This document shows, piece by piece, positions 22,145-56,543 of a stretch of DNA of 64,000 bases. A program made the translations under genes and the position numbers. The stretch is from contig JAJXWV010000077.1 in NCBI GenBank assembly GCA_021781455.1, positions 1 to 64,000 of the forward strand, in the 5' to 3' direction. Position 1 is the stretch's first letter; each line of letters opens with the position of its first letter. Source of the stretch: Acidobacteriota bacterium (GTDB lineage: Bacteria > Acidobacteriota > Thermoanaerobaculia > Gp7-AA8). The notes under the pieces are model-generated. The model saw only the letters and a list, made by a program, of their open reading frames with translations. It made no database searches and was not told where the DNA came from.

Positions 22145-22586
22145 GGACGGGCGCGAAGCTTAGCAAGGCTTTCGTGGCATTGTCAGTTGCAGTTATCCGA
22201 CGCCCTCATTCACCCGTCACTCTGAGCCGGCGGAGCCGTGGGTGGCAGGGGTGGATACGCGGCGGAACGCGGCCAACATGACCCTGTCCAGCCGTTGTTG
22301 CTGTCCAGCCGTTGAAGACAGGCCCGTAGGGCCGATTGATGCTAGCCCAGGGCTTCAGCCCTGGGAATCGAGATTCCTGGTACAACGTCGAGCCGCGGGA
22401 GCGGCGGTTGAGAGGATCTGGTCATGCTTCTCAATCGTCGCTCCGCGACTCGACGCGAATATCACGATCGCTTCCCCAGGGCTGAAGCCCTGGGCTACTC
22501 TCAAACGCCGCTACGCGGCACGAAAGCCTCGAGCGGGGGTCAGTTCCGCCCACGCGGCTCGGCCGACTCGGGAGTGACCGACGTGT
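22145..22586. repeat. Gene-free region with composite palindromic repeats
   Basis: No gene seen in 442 bases. A perfect 22-bp inverted repeat (22344-22365 with 22475-22496), each arm itself palindromic (CCCAGGGCTTCAGCCCTGGG), encloses a second inverted pair: CCGCGGGAGCGGCGGTTGAGA at 22393-22413 against TCTCAATCGTCGCTCCGCG. A copy of the GTCACTCTGAGCCGGCGGAG repeat begins at about 22216. The layout resembles a bacterial interspersed mosaic element. Confidence 0.65.
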
Positions 22587-25061
<2,475 letters not shown>

Positions 25062-25067
25062 GCGGGG

Positions 25068-25073
25068 ATTGTA
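25068..25073 (-). promoter_or_regulatory. Candidate -10 box, leaderless spacing
   Basis: TACAAT on the minus strand ends 6 bases before the ATG at 25061. No Shine-Dalgarno fits between them. Confidence 0.4.
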
Positions 25074-25075
25074 GA

Positions 25076-25225
25076 CGGAGAGCGCGGAACCGGAGAGCGC
25101 GGAACCGGAGTGCGGCCTTCCAGCCCGCCGGCGGTCGGGCATCCTGCCCGACCGCTGTCGCATGACTCTCAGACAGTCGCAAGGCTGGAAGCCCGGCGAC
25201 CGGCGGGCAGGATGCCCGCACTCCT
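25076..25225. repeat. Composite repeat between the two peptidase genes
   Basis: It begins with a tandem GGAGAGCGCGGAACC word (25079-25108). REP-like palindromes follow (GGTCGGGCATCCTGCCCGACC at about 25133-25153). It ends with copy 2 of the 34-bp repeat at 25192-25225, identical to 15933-15966. Confidence 0.65.
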
Positions 25226-25304
25226 CCGCCTCCGTTACCATGTCGCGCACCAATGGCGGCTCGTCCGACCGCCGATCGGTCTGGAGTCGCACAAGGAGAT
25301 TTCC

Positions 25305-27395
25305 ATGAAAGCGTACAAGGCGTTCGCCGGCCTCTTTCTGCTCGCCGCGGCAGCATGGGCCCAACCGATCTTCGTCCCCGCCAAGCAGCCGCTCACGCAC
25401 GAGACGATGTGGCTGATGCCGCGCGTCGGCGCGCCGCTCCTCAGCCCGGACGGCAAGCTCGTCGTCTTCTCCGTGACGAAGCCGTCGTACGACGAGAAGG
25501 AGCAGACCTCCGATCTCTGGATCGTGCCGGCCGACGGCAGCGCAGCACCACGCCAGATCACCTTCAACAAAGCGGCGGAGAGCGACGCGGCCTGGTCGCC
25601 TGACTCGCGTCGGGTGGCGTTTTCCGCGAAACGCGAAGGAGATGACGTCAACCAGATCTACATCCTCGACGTCACGGCCGCCGGCGAAGCTCGACGCGTC
25701 ACGAGCCTCTCCACCGGCGCGCGCTCCCCGCAGTTCTCGCCGGACGGAGAGGCCATCCTGTTCACGACGGTCGTCTTTCCGAACGCGCTCGACGACGAGG
25801 CGAACCGGAAGATCGCCAAAGAACGGAAGGATCGGAAGGTCCACGTCCGCGTCTACGAATCCTTCCCGGTCAAGCAGTGGGACCGCTGGCTCGACGACCA
25901 GCAGGTGCACCTGGCCATCCAGCCGCTCGACGGAAGCGCGAACGCCAAAGACATCCTGGCGGGGACGAAGCTGGTCGCAGAGCCCGGCTTCTCCGGCCGG
26001 CCCGCGGAAGGATCGCGCGACGACATCCCGGCGGAATGGTCGCCGGACGGGCAGTCGATCGTCTTCGCCGTCACGACCAGGAAGAACACCGCCGCCTACG
26101 CCGAAGTGCCGGTCGACCTCTATCGCATCCCGCGCAGCGGCGGCGAGCCGCAGCTGATCGCGCACGAGAACGGCCGCTACGGCCGCCCGAAGTTCTCTCC
26201 TGACGGCAAGACCCTGTACGCGGTCTTCGAGCCTAACAACGGCAAGGTCTACAACCTCGAGCGCATCGTGGCCTTCGACTGGCCGTCGATGAGCAATCGC
26301 CGCGTCGTCACCGCCAGCACCGATCGCTCGGTGGGCGGCTACACCGTCTCCTCGGACAGCAAGACCATCCTCTTCACTGCCGAGGACGCGGGCCTGGTCA
26401 GGATCTACTCGGTGCCTGCCACCGGCGGCGACGTGACGCTCGCCGTCGATCCGCAGCGAGGCGTCTACTCGGACGTGCAGTTCGCCGAGAAAGCGCCGGT
26501 GATCGTCGGCCGCTGGGGCTCGTCGGTCAATCCGGCCGAGGTGGTCCGCCTCGACCTCGCCGGCAAGTCGCACCACAACCTCACCTCGTTCAACGTCGAG
26601 AAGGCGGCCACCATCGACTGGCAGCCGCCGATCCACTTCTGGTTCACCTCATCGCGCGGAGCGAAGATCCACAACTTCATCGTCCTTCCGCCGAACTTCG
26701 ACCAGTCGAAGAAGTACCCGCTGCTCGTCCTCATGCACGGCGGCGCGGCGAACATGTGGCAGGACAGCATCTCCCTGCGCTGGAATTACCACCTCCTGGC
26801 AAAGCCCGGCTACGTCCTGCTGATGACCAACTACACCGGCTCGACAGGCTTCGGCGAGAAGTTCGCGCAGGACATCCAGGGCGATCCGCTCAAGGGGCCG
26901 GGCGACGACATCAACCAGGCCGCCGACGAGGCCATCAAGCGCTTCAAGTTCATCGACGGCACCCGCCAGGCAGCGGCCGGCGCGAGCTACGGCGGCCATC
27001 TCGCGAACTGGATGGAGGCGACGACCACCCGTTACAAGTGCATCATCGGCCACGCCGGCGAGGCCTCCCTGGAGAGCCAGTGGGGCACCTCGGACTCAAT
27101 CTACGGCCGCGAGCTGACCAACCTCTCGCCACCGTGGGGCAGCAGCAAGGTCTGGCGCGAGCAGAGCGCGATCGCATACGGCGGCAATTACAGGACGCCG
27201 GAAATGCTGAGCGTCGGCGAGCACGATTTCCGCGTCCCGCAGAACGAGACGATGATGCAGTGGTCGGCTCTTCAGCGCATGCGCGTGCCATCGCGCCTGC
27301 TGGTCTGGCCCGACGAAAACCACTGGATCCTCAATGCCGAGAACAGCCGCTATTTCTACAAGGAAGTGGCGGAATGGCTGGCGAAGTGGATGTAG
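25305..27395 (+). CDS. S9 family prolyl oligopeptidase / acylaminoacyl-peptidase
   Basis: A 696-residue secreted serine peptidase with a signal peptide (residues 1-21, ending AAAAWAQ). The N-terminal two thirds form a beta-propeller with repeated SPDGK/SPDS motifs typical of WD40-like PD40 blades. The alpha/beta-hydrolase domain starts near 470. The nucleophile is in GASYGG (Ser near 561), with Asp near 640 (EHDFRVPQ) and His near 672 (PDENHWIL). It releases dipeptides or acyl-amino acids in the periplasm. AAGGAG lies 6 bases before the ATG and a TTACCAT -10-like box lies about 60 bases upstream. Confidence 0.92.
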   Translation: MKAYKAFAGLFLLAAAAWAQPIFVPAKQPLTHETMWLMPRVGAPLLSPDGKLVVFSVTKPSYDEKEQTSDLWIVPADGSAAPRQITFNKAAESDAAWSPDSRRVAFSAKREGDDVNQIYILDVTAAGEARRVTSLSTGARSPQFSPDGEAILFTTVVFPNALDDEANRKIAKERKDRKVHVRVYESFPVKQWDRWLDDQQVHLAIQPLDGSANAKDILAGTKLVAEPGFSGRPAEGSRDDIPAEWSPDGQSIVFAVTTRKNTAAYAEVPVDLYRIPRSGGEPQLIAHENGRYGRPKFSPDGKTLYAVFEPNNGKVYNLERIVAFDWPSMSNRRVVTASTDRSVGGYTVSSDSKTILFTAEDAGLVRIYSVPATGGDVTLAVDPQRGVYSDVQFAEKAPVIVGRWGSSVNPAEVVRLDLAGKSHHNLTSFNVEKAATIDWQPPIHFWFTSSRGAKIHNFIVLPPNFDQSKKYPLLVLMHGGAANMWQDSISLRWNYHLLAKPGYVLLMTNYTGSTGFGEKFAQDIQGDPLKGPGDDINQAADEAIKRFKFIDGTRQAAAGASYGGHLANWMEATTTRYKCIIGHAGEASLESQWGTSDSIYGRELTNLSPPWGSSKVWREQSAIAYGGNYRTPEMLSVGEHDFRVPQNETMMQWSALQRMRVPSRLLVWPDENHWILNAENSRYFYKEVAEWLAKWM

Positions 27396-27418
27396 CAATC
27401 GGTGTGGCGCGGGCTTTC

Positions 27419-27544
27419 GGAGTGCGGACGTCCCGTCCGCAACGGCGGGACGTCCCGTCCCGCCGTGAACGAGCGTTCCGTGCGGCGAGCCAACGGGCGC
27501 CGGACGGGACGTCCGGCGCTTGCGGACGAGGACGTCCGCACTCC
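27419..27544. repeat. Palindromic repeat upstream of the selenoprotein gene
   Basis: Perfect 15-bp outer arms (GGAGTGCGGACGTCC at 27419-27433, its complement at 27530-27544) enclose nested GGGACGTCCC-type palindromes. The element ends 18 bases before the candidate -35 box of the selenoprotein promoter. Confidence 0.65.
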
Positions 27545-27562
27545 GCGTTTTCCCATCCGTCA

Positions 27563-27590
27563 CTGACCCCGGCAAGGCGCGTGCTAGCAT
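27563..27590 (+). promoter_or_regulatory. Candidate promoter of the selenoprotein gene
   Basis: CTGACC (-35, 27563-27568), a 16-base spacer and TAGCAT (-10, 27585-27590) lie directly before the gene. Only 8 bases separate the -10 box from the ATG, so the transcript may be leaderless. Confidence 0.5.
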
Positions 27591-27598
27591 CCTCCGCC

Positions 27599-28921
27599 AT
27601 GAAATTTCGCATGATCGCATTGGCGATCCTGCTCGCGGGCACCGCGGCGATCGCATCCGCAAGACAAGTTCTGCCGTTCGTCGAGAACGACTACACCAGG
27701 GCGCTGGCCCGGGCCAAAGCGGACAACCTCCCGTTGTTCGTCGATGCCTGGGCACCGTGGTGACACACGTGCCGCTCGATGCGCGCCTATGTCTTCACCG
27801 ACAAGGCGCTCGGGCGGTACGCCGGACGGTTCGTCTGGCTCTCGATCGACACGGAAAACGCCGCCAATGCCGCGTTTCTGAAGAAATACCCGATTCCCGC
27901 GCTTCCGACGATGCTGGTTGTCGATCCCAGACAGCAGGCCGTGGTCATGCGCTACGCGGGAGGAGCAACGGTCGCGCAGCTGCAGAAGCTTCTCGACGAC
28001 GGTGAGCACGCCTACCGCGCCCGCGGCAGCAGCGCCGACACGCTCCTGAGCTCCGCCGACAACCTTGCCTCGGAAGGCAGGAATGCCGAGGCCGTCAAGG
28101 TGTACGAAAAGGCCATCGCGGCGGCGCCGAAGAAGTGGGGGCGCCTGGGCCGCGCTACGGAGTCGCTCACCTTCACGATGATGCTGAATCGCGAGAGCGA
28201 CCGCTGTGCGACCCTGGCCCGCGACCTCTATCCGCGCCTGAAGGGAACGACCTCGGGCGCGAATGTCGCCAGCACCGGCCTCAGTTGCGCGCTCGACATC
28301 GACGCCCAAAACGCGTCGCGCGCCGTCCTCGTGAAGACGCTCGAAGCGGATACGCGCCAGGCATTCGATGATCCGAGGGTCCGGGCGAAGATGTCGGGCG
28401 ACGACATCTCGGGCCTGTACGACGCTCTGATCTCCGCGCGCGCCGACGCAAAGGACGAAGCCGGCGCGAAGGCGCTTCGCGAGCATTGGGCGGCCTTCCT
28501 CGAAAAAGAAGCGGCCACTGCCAAGACGCCTGAACAGCGCGCCGTGTACGACTCGCACAGGCTGAGCGCTTACCTGGCGCTGAACACGCCGGAGAAGGCC
28601 ATCCCGATGCTCGAGCAGTCGCAGAAGGACTTCCCCGACGACTACAACCCGCCGGCGCGGCTCGCTCTGGCCTACAACGCCATGGGCCGTTTCGACGACG
28701 CCCTCGCTGCCTCGACGACCGCCTTGCGGAAGGCGTACGGCCCGCGGAAGATCGGGATCTACCGCACCCGCGCCGACATCTTCGCCGCCAAAGGTGACAA
28801 GGCCGGCGCCCGCAAGACCATCGAAGAAGCGATCGCGTACGCCAGGACGCTTCCCGAAGCATCGGGCACGACGCGCACCATCGCCGCGCTGGAAAAGAAG
28901 CTCGCCGCGATGCCGCAGTAA
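27599..28921 (+). CDS. Selenoprotein: secreted thioredoxin-fold protein with W-Sec-H-T-C motif (TGA = Sec at 27761-27763)
   Basis: Reading through the single in-frame TGA gives a 440-residue protein. Residues 1-21 are a signal peptide (MIALAILLAGTAAIASA). Residues 25-135 form a thioredoxin fold: FVDAWAPW, then Sec55-His-Thr-Cys58, then RSMRAYVFTD, LSIDTENAANAAFLKKYPI, and the cis-proline strand PALPTMLVVDP. Residues 140-440 are TPR-like helices (DTLLSSADNLASEGRNAEAV; PARLALAYNAMGRFDDALAA). Frame and coding character are unbroken on both sides of the TGA; Cys homologues of this type usually read WAPWCHTC. A tRNA-Sec gene is present at 56446-56543. A periplasmic thiol or peroxide redox role is inferred. 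The alternative is a recent TGC-to-TGA nonsense mutation. No separate start with a ribosome binding site was seen for the downstream part. Confidence 0.85.
27764..27820 (+). promoter_or_regulatory. Candidate bacterial SECIS hairpin after the Sec codon
   Basis: Two foldings are visible just after the TGA. The longer pairs GTGCCGC (27769-27775) with GCGGTAC (27814-27820), GCGCC (27783-27787) with GGCGC (27805-27809), and TGTC (27790-27793) with GACA (27800-27803) around a six-base loop. A smaller hairpin uses 27771-27775 with 27781-27786, with one bulged C. Bacterial SECIS elements vary, and I cannot tell which is used. Confidence 0.4.
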
Positions 28922-28922
28922 C

Positions 28923-29014
28923 TATTTGAGATTTGAGATTGATGATTGATGATTGATGAACCGAGGAGGCCACTCCTTCATCGGTTCATCAATCATCAAT
29001 CTGAGGTCCTAAAT
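28923..29014. repeat. Self-repetitive hairpin element (GATTGATGA words)
   Basis: The left arm has tandem TTTGAGA and TGATTGATGA words (28924-28960) leading to GAACCGA. The right arm TCGGTTCATCAATCATCAAT (28981-29000) is its complement. A related element lies at 34501-34586. It sits between the convergent stop codons of the selenoprotein and protease genes. Confidence 0.7.
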
Positions 29015-29017
29015 AAA

Positions 29018-31450
29018 CTAACGCGCCACGACACGGCGGCGCGTAACACCCGGCGTGACGCTCGCGGCCGTGCTGTTGACGAAGCCGCAGCTGTTGCTGA
29101 TGCGCACCCAGTACGTCTCCTGAGCGTTCACCGCAGGGATGTACAGCCGCGCCAGGCTGTTCCCCACCGGAGCCGTGAAGTCGAAGACCTGTCCTCGATA
29201 CCAGCGGTACTCCAGAGAAGTTCCAGTGGCGGACACGTTCAGGAATGCCGGTGCGCCCGGCGACACCATCACATCCTGGGGCTGCGAGACGATCGCCGGC
29301 GCGATGCAGGAGGGAACGACGGTGACCGTCACGGCCGCCGATTCAGTCGCGGCACAGTCGTTTTTCGCCTGCAGCCAGAACGTCCGGGTCGACACGATCG
29401 AACTGATCGTGACCGTCGCGGTGACTGCGTTCGTCACCGGTTTCGAAGTGTCGCCCGCGTTTCCTTCGTACCACTGCATGAGGATCGGCGCCGTGCCGAC
29501 GACGGTGGCCGACAGAGTGAACGAGCCACCGGAGTCGGCCACGCCTCCCGAAGGCTGGATCACGATGTCCGGCACATCGCAGCGGAGCACTGTGACCGTG
29601 ACGGTGGCGCTGTCGCCGAACGCGCCGCAGGAGTTGGTGGCGCGCATCCAGTACCTGGTCGTGACCTGCGGAGTGACGGTCATGGAAGGAGCGATCGCGC
29701 CGGCGATCGGTGTGGCGGTGCTCCCGCTCGATCCGACGAACCATTGAACCGGCAGACCGGGGGGATTCACGGTTGCGGTCAGCGTGACGCTGTGCCCCTG
29801 CAGGATCGTGACGTCCTGCGACTGTGAGGTCACGAGCGCAGCCGGGCAACCGTTGACGCTGACCGTGGCACTGGCGCTGTCGACGGATCCCGGGCAGCCG
29901 TTCGACACGCGCACCCAATACGACGTGGTCGTGGACGGACTGACGCTGATTTGAGGAGTCGTCCCGCCGGAAACGGCGACCGCGGTGTTGCCGGTCGCGC
30001 CGATGTACCACTGGTATGAAAGCGGGTCGGTGCCCGTGGCCGTCACCGAGAGCACGGCTTCAGACGCTCCTGGACCGAGGTCCTGCGACTGAGGCTGCGT
30101 CGTGATCTGCGGCGTGGTGCACGGTGTACCCCCACCACCACCGCCCCCACCACCGCCTCCGCCACCTCCACCTCCGCCACCCCCGCCGCCGCTTCCACCC
30201 GTTCCATACACGGTCGCGAGCGCCGCCAGATCCCACGCCTGCAGCGCTGCGCCGGTTGGATCGTTGTTGAAGTCGACGCTCGAGTCCATCAGCGCGTTGT
30301 TCGTGCAGTTGAGAGCCGGGTCGCCGGCGCATGAGGCGGTTCCGGCGGGGTTCTGGTCGGAGTGGCGGAAGCCGAGCGTGTGGCCGAGCTCGTGCGCCAG
30401 GACGTGGTTGAAGCCGTTGCCAATCAGACCCGGTCCGCTGATCCCGTCCTGAACGACGAGGTCGGCCTCCACGATGGTGGCAAACGTCTCGCCGTTGAAC
30501 GTGTGGGTCGAGCCATTGACCCATGCTCCGCCGATGGCGAGGACACCCCCCTGGTTCGGATCGAAGGAGCCGGTGATCTCGTTGGACGGGTCGTTGAACT
30601 GGACGCTGTTGACACCGTCTGGAACGTTCGATGCGAATGCCTGCGATACAGTCGTCGTTCCGCCGTACTGAAGGATTACATTCGATCCCGGATCATTCGT
30701 CCACGTGGCCAAGCCCACGATGAGAGCGGTCAGGCCACCGTTGAGTGCGCCCGGCTGGGTGCCGTGGCTCCTGAAGACGACCGGCGTCGGGAAGCTCGGC
30801 CAACGCATGCCCAACGGGTTGGGCATCAGATAGCTGGTCGCCGAATAGGTTGCGTTCGTCGTCGCGTGGCTCGAGGCGGTGACGACCGCAGGATCGTTCA
30901 CCACGTAATCGGCAAACGGCCGCTCGCCCCGTGCGCTCCGGCGGACGAAGTCGAGGAACGGTTGCGCCAGCCGCTGCGGCTCTCGATGAACGCCGCCAGC
31001 GAGGTCCCAGCCGGCGATCTCCCCCCCATCGCGCAGCAGCAGATCGCGACCGTGGCTGTCGGTGGCGAACGAAAACTTCCCGACCGCCATGGCACGCGTA
31101 CACCAGTCGCCACGGTCGTTCGTCTCGAGGAAGACCAGCGCGCGCTGGCCGCTCGGATACTTCGGACTGCCGGCCACCGCGTAACCGGCCTTCCCGACCG
31201 TGCCGCCGAGCTCGACGATGTCGAAGTCGTCGCCGGCCTGGAGCGGGCCCTTGATCGCCTCCTCGATGTGCATCGCGGTGACGGTCTCGATCCAGCCGCC
31301 GCCGGCTGCCCATCGCGACCTCGACTCTCCTGCCGTGGCGACGACGATGGCTTTTGAACCCGACACGAGAATGGCGTCGGGCGGGACGATGAACGTCGCC
31401 GCGGTCAACGGGGCGGCGACGAAAAGGAGGAACGCGATGGACCGCTTCAC
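29018..31450 (-). CDS. Secreted matrixin-like metalloprotease with poly-glycine linker and Ig-like domains
   Basis: An 810-residue exported protein. The signal peptide covers residues 1-18 (MKRSIAFLLFVAAPLTAA). The catalytic part carries the full metzincin motif HELGHTLGFRH near residue 355, and the helix before it (GLIGNGFNHVLA) fits M10/M12-type proteases. About 21 consecutive glycines (near 421-441) join it to four Ig-like domains of about 85 residues. Each has a TQPQSQ- or SQPQD-type entry and a WxR(V/A)SNxCG exit, with repeated cysteines. The C-terminal tail is basic (TRRRVVAR). GTG start, with TAGACT 6 bases upstream. Role: probably extracellular protein degradation or adhesion. Confidence 0.87.
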   Translation of the reverse strand: MKRSIAFLLFVAAPLTAATFIVPPDAILVSGSKAIVVATAGESRSRWAAGGGWIETVTAMHIEEAIKGPLQAGDDFDIVELGGTVGKAGYAVAGSPKYPSGQRALVFLETNDRGDWCTRAMAVGKFSFATDSHGRDLLLRDGGEIAGWDLAGGVHREPQRLAQPFLDFVRRSARGERPFADYVVNDPAVVTASSHATTNATYSATSYLMPNPLGMRWPSFPTPVVFRSHGTQPGALNGGLTALIVGLATWTNDPGSNVILQYGGTTTVSQAFASNVPDGVNSVQFNDPSNEITGSFDPNQGGVLAIGGAWVNGSTHTFNGETFATIVEADLVVQDGISGPGLIGNGFNHVLAHELGHTLGFRHSDQNPAGTASCAGDPALNCTNNALMDSSVDFNNDPTGAALQAWDLAALATVYGTGGSGGGGGGGGGGGGGGGGGGGGGTPCTTPQITTQPQSQDLGPGASEAVLSVTATGTDPLSYQWYIGATGNTAVAVSGGTTPQISVSPSTTTSYWVRVSNGCPGSVDSASATVSVNGCPAALVTSQSQDVTILQGHSVTLTATVNPPGLPVQWFVGSSGSTATPIAGAIAPSMTVTPQVTTRYWMRATNSCGAFGDSATVTVTVLRCDVPDIVIQPSGGVADSGGSFTLSATVVGTAPILMQWYEGNAGDTSKPVTNAVTATVTISSIVSTRTFWLQAKNDCAATESAAVTVTVVPSCIAPAIVSQPQDVMVSPGAPAFLNVSATGTSLEYRWYRGQVFDFTAPVGNSLARLYIPAVNAQETYWVRISNSCGFVNSTAASVTPGVTRRRVVAR

Positions 31451-54784: not shown

Positions 54785-55501
54785 ATGGAAGGAATGAACG
54801 CGAGTTTCAGCCTTCTGGGCATGTGGGCCACCATGAACTGGGTGGCCCGCGGCGTGGTGTTCGTGCTGGCGGCGATGTCGATCTGGTCGCTGACCATCGC
54901 CATCGAAAGAGCCTGGCGGTTTTACAACGCCCGGAACCAGTCCGTGGCCCTGGCGCGCGAGATCACTCCCCTGCTCAAGGAGCACAACCTCGGTGAAGCC
55001 ATCATCCGCACCCGCGACTACCGTTTCCGCCACAGTCACCTGGCGCGCGTGCTCAAAGCGGGGCTGACCGAGTTTCAACTCGACGCCTCGCAGGATTACG
55101 ACGAGGACTTCGACGTCGTCGAGGCCGGCAAGCGGGCCATCGACCGCGAGGCCATGATGACCTCCTCCGAAATGAAGAAGGGGCTCGGCGCGCTGGCCAC
55201 GATCGCCACGACGGCCCCCTTCATCGGCCTGTTCGGGACCGTGGCCGGCATCATCCACGCCTTCCAGGGCATGGCCATCACCGGCTCGGGCGGTCTCGGT
55301 GCCGTCTCGGCCGGTATTGCCGAGGCCCTGGTCACGACCGCCTTCGGATTGTTCGTGGCCATCCCTGCGGTGTGGCTCTACAACTACTTCCTCAACCGCG
55401 TCGACCGCTTCCAGGTGGAGATGGCGAACTCCTCGTCCCAGCTGGTCGACTTCTTCGTGAAGAACGAAGCGCGCGCTCGCGCCAAAGCGGCCCGGGCCTG
55501 A
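54785..55501 (+). CDS. ExbB/TolQ/MotA family proton-channel protein
   Basis: A 238-residue inner-membrane protein with three transmembrane helices: about 15-35 (VARGVVFVLAAMSIWSLTI), 135-160 (ATIATTAPFIGLFGTVAGII) and 175-200 (GIAEALVTTAFGLFVAIPAV). The TAPFIGLFGTVAGI and GIAEALVTTAFGL segments are diagnostic. With the two ExbD-type proteins encoded next it would form a pmf-driven stator that energises outer-membrane transport or envelope integrity. AAAAGGAGAAGG precedes the ATG. Confidence 0.92.
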   Translation: MEGMNASFSLLGMWATMNWVARGVVFVLAAMSIWSLTIAIERAWRFYNARNQSVALAREITPLLKEHNLGEAIIRTRDYRFRHSHLARVLKAGLTEFQLDASQDYDEDFDVVEAGKRAIDREAMMTSSEMKKGLGALATIATTAPFIGLFGTVAGIIHAFQGMAITGSGGLGAVSAGIAEALVTTAFGLFVAIPAVWLYNYFLNRVDRFQVEMANSSSQLVDFFVKNEARARAKAARA

Positions 55502-55513
55502 CGGAGGGGGGCG

Positions 55514-55915
55514 ATGGACTTCGGCAACGGGGGAGAGGTCAAGAGCGACATCAACGTCACGCCGCTCGTCGACGTCTGCCTCGTGCTGCTCATCATCTTC
55601 ATGGTGGTCACGCCGATGCTCCAGCAGGGAGTGGACGTGCTCCTTCCGACCAGCGCGCATGCGGAGAAGAAGGCCGGGAAGGAAGCCGACCTCGTCATCT
55701 CCATCAAGCAGGACGGCACTGTCTTCGTGGGCCAGGACTGGATTCCGGACAGCAAGCTGCCCAAGTACCTCAAGTCCGAGCACGACAAGGACGCCACTCG
55801 CGTGGTGATGCTCAAGGCGGACAAGCGCCTGAATTTCGGCAAGGTGCGCGCGGTCATGAAGGCCGCCAACGACGCCCAGTTCTCGCAGATAGCGATCTTG
55901 ACGGAGAACAAGTGA
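55514..55915 (+). CDS. ExbD/TolR family protein, first copy
   Basis: A 133-residue protein with one N-terminal membrane helix (about 15-35, PLVDVCLVLLIIFMVVTPML), which holds the conserved aspartate of INVTPLVDV used in proton flow. The C-terminal periplasmic domain (VISIKQDGTVFVGQDWI, VVMLKADKRLNFGKVRAVM) follows the usual ExbD/TolR pattern. GGAGGG lies 6 bases before the ATG, 12 bases after exbB. Two different ExbD paralogues suggest a mixed stator. Confidence 0.92.
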   Translation: MDFGNGGEVKSDINVTPLVDVCLVLLIIFMVVTPMLQQGVDVLLPTSAHAEKKAGKEADLVISIKQDGTVFVGQDWIPDSKLPKYLKSEHDKDATRVVMLKADKRLNFGKVRAVMKAANDAQFSQIAILTENK

Positions 55916-56004
55916 GTGCTGAGTCCTGAGTGCTGAGTCCTGAGTAAGGCGGCGCTTTTCTCAGGACTCAGGACTCAAGGCTCAGGACTCAGGACTCAGG
56001 ACTC
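55914..56004. repeat. Self-repetitive hairpin element (GGACTCA words) between the two exbD genes
   Basis: The left arm is tandem GAGTCCTGAGTGCTGAGTCC words (55914-55945). The right arm is tandem CAGGACT words (55961-56004). The arms are long complements around a short loop. AGGA of the last word lies about 8 bases before the ATG at 56008 and may serve as ribosome binding site. Confidence 0.8.
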
Positions 56005-56007
56005 GCA

Positions 56008-56427
<420 letters not shown>

Positions 56428-56445: not shown

Positions 56446-56543
56446 TGGCGGAGGCGTGTCGGAATCGAACCAACCTTTCGACGCTTCCGCGCCGAAACAA
56501 CGGTTTTGAAGACCGCGGGAGCCACCAGACCCCATTCGCCTCC
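56446..56543 (-). tRNA. selC: Selenocysteine tRNA (anticodon TCA)
   Basis: 98 bases with encoded GCCA. The 5' end GGAGGCG pairs with CGCCTCC before GCCA. The anticodon arm is GCGGT-CTTCAAA-ACCGT with TCA (complement of 56507-56509). A long variable arm (GTTTCGGCGCGGAAGCGTCG region) and the T-arm GTTGG-TTCGATT-CCGAC follow. The extended size, the UCA anticodon and the G-rich D-arm (ATGGGGTCTGGTGGC) are specific to bacterial tRNA-Sec. It decodes UGA with SelB and a SECIS hairpin, so this genome should make selenoproteins. Confidence 0.95.

Follow-up and report, generated by a model that had tools for sequence, protein, structure and literature searches.

A gene in the 64,000-nucleotide stretch of Acidobacteriota DNA analysed here (the window) has an in-frame UGA at codon 55 that, judging from comparative sequence evidence, is almost certainly read as selenocysteine (Sec). 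Its product would be a 440-residue protein in which a predicted signal peptide precedes a UxxC thioredoxin domain and a superhelix of tetratricopeptide repeats (TPR). Sec decoding, the export signal, and the domain architecture are each supported by the comparisons below; the protein most likely works after export as a thiol-disulfide reductase or isomerase, with its TPR part docking a client or partner. We put the probability of this reading as a whole (Sec-decoded, exported, UxxC thiol-disulfide enzyme with TPR docking) at roughly 0.85.

The frame opens with ATG at 27599 and closes with TAA at 28919–28921, and the TGA at 27761–27763 is the sole stop inside it, as a preliminary description of this DNA had stated. 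Codon 55 lies in the context FVDAWAPW-U-HTCRSMR, so that the TGA does stand, as that description had proposed, at the place of the first Cys of a thioredoxin motif, where homologues have Cys or Sec. The signal peptide it had reported is likewise evident (MKFRMIALAILLAGTAAIASA|RQ), and the helical extension of ~300 residues that it had placed after the thioredoxin fold is real, consists of TPR, and is kept with the rest of the architecture across the family. Its 'good promoter' was not recovered: a consensus scan of 27350–29100 gave no sigma-70-like match upstream of the gene, such scans being poorly informative in Acidobacteriota. Just 5′ of the gene, at 27421–27540, GACGTCCCGTCC occurs in three exact copies, two in direct orientation and the third inverted; they may represent a palindromic repeat element. 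The features are collected in Table 1.

Table 1. Features of the predicted selenoprotein gene and its decoding tRNA, in window coordinates
Feature	Position	Strand	Basis
Predicted selenoprotein gene of 440 codons (codon 55 is UGA) and its TAA stop	27599–28921	+	TGA kept in 30 genomes
Predicted signal peptide, residues 1–21, AxA cleavage site 19–21	27599–27661	+	Sequence; most members have a hydrophobic N-terminus
Thioredoxin domain (Thioredoxin_7 / DsbD-gamma-like), residues 28–139	27680–28015	+	PF13899, 42.4 bits; AlphaFold model
UGA codon, predicted Sec55 of WUHTC motif	27761–27763	+	TGA in 30 genomes; TGC/TGT in remaining homologues covering the site
Invariant Cys58, presumed to be the resolving Cys of UxxC	27770–27772	+	Alignment
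Candidate bacterial SECIS stem-loop within coding sequence	27780–27812	+	Pairing in Sec genes 88.9%, in Cys homologues 57.9%
Pro103, invariant, thioredoxin cis-proline position	27905–27907	+	Alignment
TPR superhelix, residues 145–437	28031–28909	+	Pfam TPR families; AlphaFold model; alignment
Cys203 and Cys230, nearly invariant, in TPR superhelix	28205–28207 and 28286–28288	+	Alignment
tRNA-Sec gene, anticodon UCA	56446–56543	-	ARAGORN; Rfam RF01852, 71.1 bits

Assignment to the thioredoxin fold is based on a Pfam Thioredoxin_7 (PF13899) score well above the cut-off of 27 bits, a WxxC-type active site, and a cis-Pro; several TPR families also matched, and the Thioredoxin_7 match was present in all 46 aligned members of the family. 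The AlphaFold model (pLDDT 94.3, pTM 0.90) shows a thioredoxin fold followed by a helical array. Residues W51, W54, U/C55, C58, P103, D268, R354, and G381 are invariant in the family alignment, giving the pattern WxxW-U/C-xxC, and C203 and C230, conserved in at least 90% of members, are located on neighbouring predicted helices. Signal peptides occur in most members, which makes export of the protein very probable. In a few members, the ordinary signal peptide is replaced by a lipobox-like N-terminus (LAAC, FLAC, or LAGC; loci L139–L142 in genomes G257 and G280, and L009), which suggests membrane-anchored forms.

In the mechanism that we propose, SelB and tRNA-Sec would decode the codon-55 UGA as Sec, assisted by the stem-loop just 3′ of it, and the signal peptide would direct export. 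Once exported, the protein would use Sec55 (motif WUHTC) to attack disulfides or oxidised thiols of the substrate, and the resulting mixed selenylsulfide would be resolved by Cys58. Electrons might come from the DsbD-type (DsbD_TM) protein that another part of the genome encodes, and the TPR superhelix may hold a client or partner beside the active site. Some observations count against this reading: no shared operon pointing to a partner was found, the apical loop of the stem-loop lacks a G, an alternative RNA fold is favoured by RNAalifold, and the stem is largely kept in some Cys homologues from the phylum (see below).

The search for a conserved operon, by blastp of the open reading frames of 16 neighbourhoods and the window, gave only one neighbour common to three close relatives. 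Elsewhere in the window, two divergent copies of the little-studied Acido-Lenti-1 RNA family (RF01687) lie 109 bases apart, at 22320–22365 (-) and 22475–22520 (+). Two long open reading frames, 22587–26636 (-) and 25056–27395 (+), overlap by ~1.6 kb on opposite strands; one matches Met-zincin DUF4953 and the other prolyl oligopeptidase S9, and at least one of the two starts is probably misplaced. An ExbB-like and two ExbD-like genes (54785–56427, +) directly adjoin the tRNA-Sec gene.

By sequence, the closest solved relatives of the thioredoxin domain were 2kuc, a putative disulphide isomerase, and 2fwe, the C-terminal (gamma) domain of DsbD. The likeness to such Thioredoxin_7 disulfide reductases is one of thioredoxin-domain sequence; they have no TPR and use Cys rather than Sec, and DsbD is a membrane protein. 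By structure, Foldseek placed E. coli YbbN/CnoX first (E 9e-6), albeit with TM-scores of only 0.22/0.33, and YbbN did not appear among the best 60 profile matches in PDB sequences. CnoX of E. coli and Caulobacter has the same domain order, an N-terminal thioredoxin domain and then a TPR domain, and Caulobacter CnoX combines holdase with oxidoreductase activity (PMC6282202). The window protein could thus be an exported chaperedoxin in the manner of CnoX, with the TPR part as holdase and the Sec-thioredoxin domain shielding or repairing client cysteines, and the two highly conserved Cys residues of the TPR domain would fit such a role. We consider this unlikely, because CnoX is cytoplasmic and passes its clients to DnaK and GroEL (PMC6282202), whereas the window protein, like most of its relatives, has a signal peptide, and because the likeness, at these low TM-scores and without demonstrated homology of the TPR sequences, is one of domain order. 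The active sites also differ, E. coli CnoX having SxxC where the window protein has UxxC and its relatives Sec or Cys, and the TPR part is longer here. Membership of the CnoX family was accordingly rejected on location, poor structural agreement, and undemonstrated homology. Slightly less probable again is a selenium-dependent extracytoplasmic chaperedoxin, in which the TPR superhelix would capture exported proteins that are unfolded or oxidised, and Sec55 would repair or shield them via reversible mixed selenylsulfides; if true, this would be an extracytoplasmic folding factor without a described counterpart.

Peroxide reduction is common among Sec enzymes, as established knowledge and a 2026 review have it (PMC13188914), and the Sec-thioredoxin domain might by analogy be a peroxidase, or a repair enzyme acting on peroxides or oxidised methionine. 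This appears improbable, for the domain's motif, set in a Thioredoxin_7 fold, reads UxxC and not TxxU as in peroxiredoxins or UxxT as in glutathione peroxidases (PMC13188914, Table 1), and Pfam gave no match to any peroxidase or Msr family. A thiol-disulfide reductase or isomerase remains the preferred function.

That the UGA is translated at all is argued by its distribution. The gene was present in 29 of 149 genomes in a same-class search, and sampling of the phylum added further carriers; in all, 30 sampled Acidobacteriota genomes from ten families, the window's included, have TGA at the aligned codon, and five have TGC. Across bacterial and archaeal genomes, a scan recovered 65 relatives, mostly from Myxococcota, among which a Thermoanaerobaculia metagenome-assembled genome (L006, 68% identical) was the only TGA carrier, the others having Cys codons; the scan used six patterns including one Cys-bearing peptide, so Sec forms may be under-sampled in it. 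All non-TGA homologues covering the site have Cys (TGC or TGT; 66 distinct site sequences, mostly from Myxococcota), and no codon besides TGA or TGC/TGT was found there among the sampled homologues. The aligned residue is thus exclusively Cys or Sec, the outcome that the preliminary description had named as the test of its proposal. A diverged homologue (L113, 32–34% identical) from genome G006, which belongs to the same family as the window's genome, also has TGA at this codon, in the motif W-U-YSC. Recoding of UAG was considered for two homologues listed with TAG and dropped: the site is TGC in one, and in the other it is TGA, the TAG lying close to the C-terminus at position 439.

If the UGA were a genuine stop or had arisen by sequencing error, the locus would be a pseudogene or would encode a separate downstream protein from the ATG at 27779, where a 380-codon open reading frame begins that standard gene calling probably records. 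We regard this as very improbable. A protein begun at 27779 would be missing the signal peptide and the first strand as well as both residues of the active site; the identical TGA recurs in 30 independent genomes; Cys-bearing homologues run continuously through the site; and purifying selection is seen on both sides of the TGA. In comparisons of the window gene with four relatives, dN 3′ of the TGA was 0.14–0.36 and dS was 0.6–1.2, which places the downstream codons under purifying selection. Taken together, the TGA shared across genomes, the Cys homologues, and dN < dS speak strongly against both a pseudogene and an error of sequencing.

The genome encodes what Sec decoding needs. Besides the tRNA-Sec gene in the window, correctly identified in the preliminary description, selA (472.6 bits), selB (370.4 bits), and selD (355.1 bits) were each found above their cut-offs, as that description had suggested checking. 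The selA and selB genes have no inner TGA. One in-frame TGA each is present in the SelD gene (L080, G000:C30:12837–13775) and in a full-length gene for formate dehydrogenase alpha, FdhA (L161, G000:C23:94615–97686) of the same genome; both are classical selenoproteins, and these two are probably further selenoproteins of this organism. An altered code, with TGA as an ordinary amino acid organism-wide, could also produce an in-frame TGA but is hardly credible, given that the ExbB-like gene and one of the two ExbD-like genes in the window end with TGA as a normal stop, that selA and selB are free of it and SelD and FdhA have one each, like known selenoproteins, that the aligned residue is Cys and neither Trp nor Gly, and that the genes examined showed no spread of in-frame TGA through unrelated conserved genes.

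A stem-loop follows the UGA, at 17–49 nt after it, and is retained in the Sec members; folding the mRNA after this codon was a check that the preliminary description had proposed. A 61-base segment spanning the TGA and the sequence after it gave a more stable fold than its shuffled versions (z -2.83). Numbered from the U of UGA, the stem pairs 20–25 with 47–52 and 31–33 with 40–42; across 29 Sec sequences it was formed in 88.9% of cells, and none of 500 shuffles was as good, whereas in 29 Cys sequences pairing fell to 57.9%, below the shuffles. Of the six lower-stem pairs, Sec genes kept 5.1, Acidobacteriota Cys genes 3.6 (n=5), and other Cys genes 3.2, counts that are not independent, the sequences being related and coding. 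Nine cells of the Sec set were changed on both sides, all at the single pair 24–48. The apical loop is UUCACC, and the usual bacterial SECIS model has a G there; unguided RNAalifold favoured a weak alternative fold (-2.95 kcal/mol) for the Sec set, and some Acidobacteriota Cys homologues retain much of the stem. The stem-loop is accordingly a good candidate SECIS, short of proven.

A tree of 46 sequences required five changes between Sec and Cys, of which at least four were forced by well-supported branches. Scores above cut-off were obtained for selA in 34 of 37 genomes, nearly all of which carry the gene family, and likewise for selB in 34 of 37. Two genomes with the Cys form, G004 and G005, have both selA and selB, so conversion from Sec to Cys does not simply follow from loss of the machinery, and that explanation of their Cys forms was dropped; the weak tRNA-Sec scores of these two genomes came from only 150 candidates scored per genome.

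The 2026 review inventoried 119 prokaryotic selenoprotein families and subfamilies (PMC13188914). Its entries include a Sec-containing thioredoxin (PF00085, UxxC), verified experimentally in bacteria (PMC13188914, Table 1), which shares the thioredoxin fold and the replacement of the first Cys of CxxC by Sec; it is listed as a single domain, whereas in the window protein the domain is of the Thioredoxin_7 type and is flanked by a signal peptide and ~300 TPR residues. No TPR-fused or Thioredoxin_7 UxxC entry appears among the 119 (PMC13188914, Table 1). Two other listed selenoproteins with NCBIfam models, Trx7/PDZ (NF041199) and TsoB (NF045694), have a Thioredoxin_7-type or DsbD-type part as here, but NF041199 has a CxxU motif and a PDZ domain, and its model gave no match to the window protein, while TsoB matched over the thioredoxin part only, scoring 32 bits where the cut-off is 805. 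There was no full-length match to the window protein among the NCBIfam selenoprotein models, and no earlier description in Acidobacteriota was found in open-access papers. The suggestion that the exported, extended form may be undescribed therefore survives comparison with the inventory (PMC13188914). We rate the protein as a new family with a new architecture within the known UxxC thioredoxin selenoproteins, its separation from the PF00085 and PF13098 UxxC entries of the inventory being by descriptions only.

The finding adds a selenoprotein family, of an architecture absent from the inventory checked, that is spread over the large and little-studied phylum Acidobacteriota. Standard gene calling probably truncates such genes at the UGA, so that what is recorded is just a TPR protein lacking the active site. 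Close Sec and Cys forms occur in genomes with Sec machinery, with at least four switches in the tree. The family thus offers a natural system in which to study the benefit of Sec over Cys in an extracytoplasmic thiol-disulfide enzyme.
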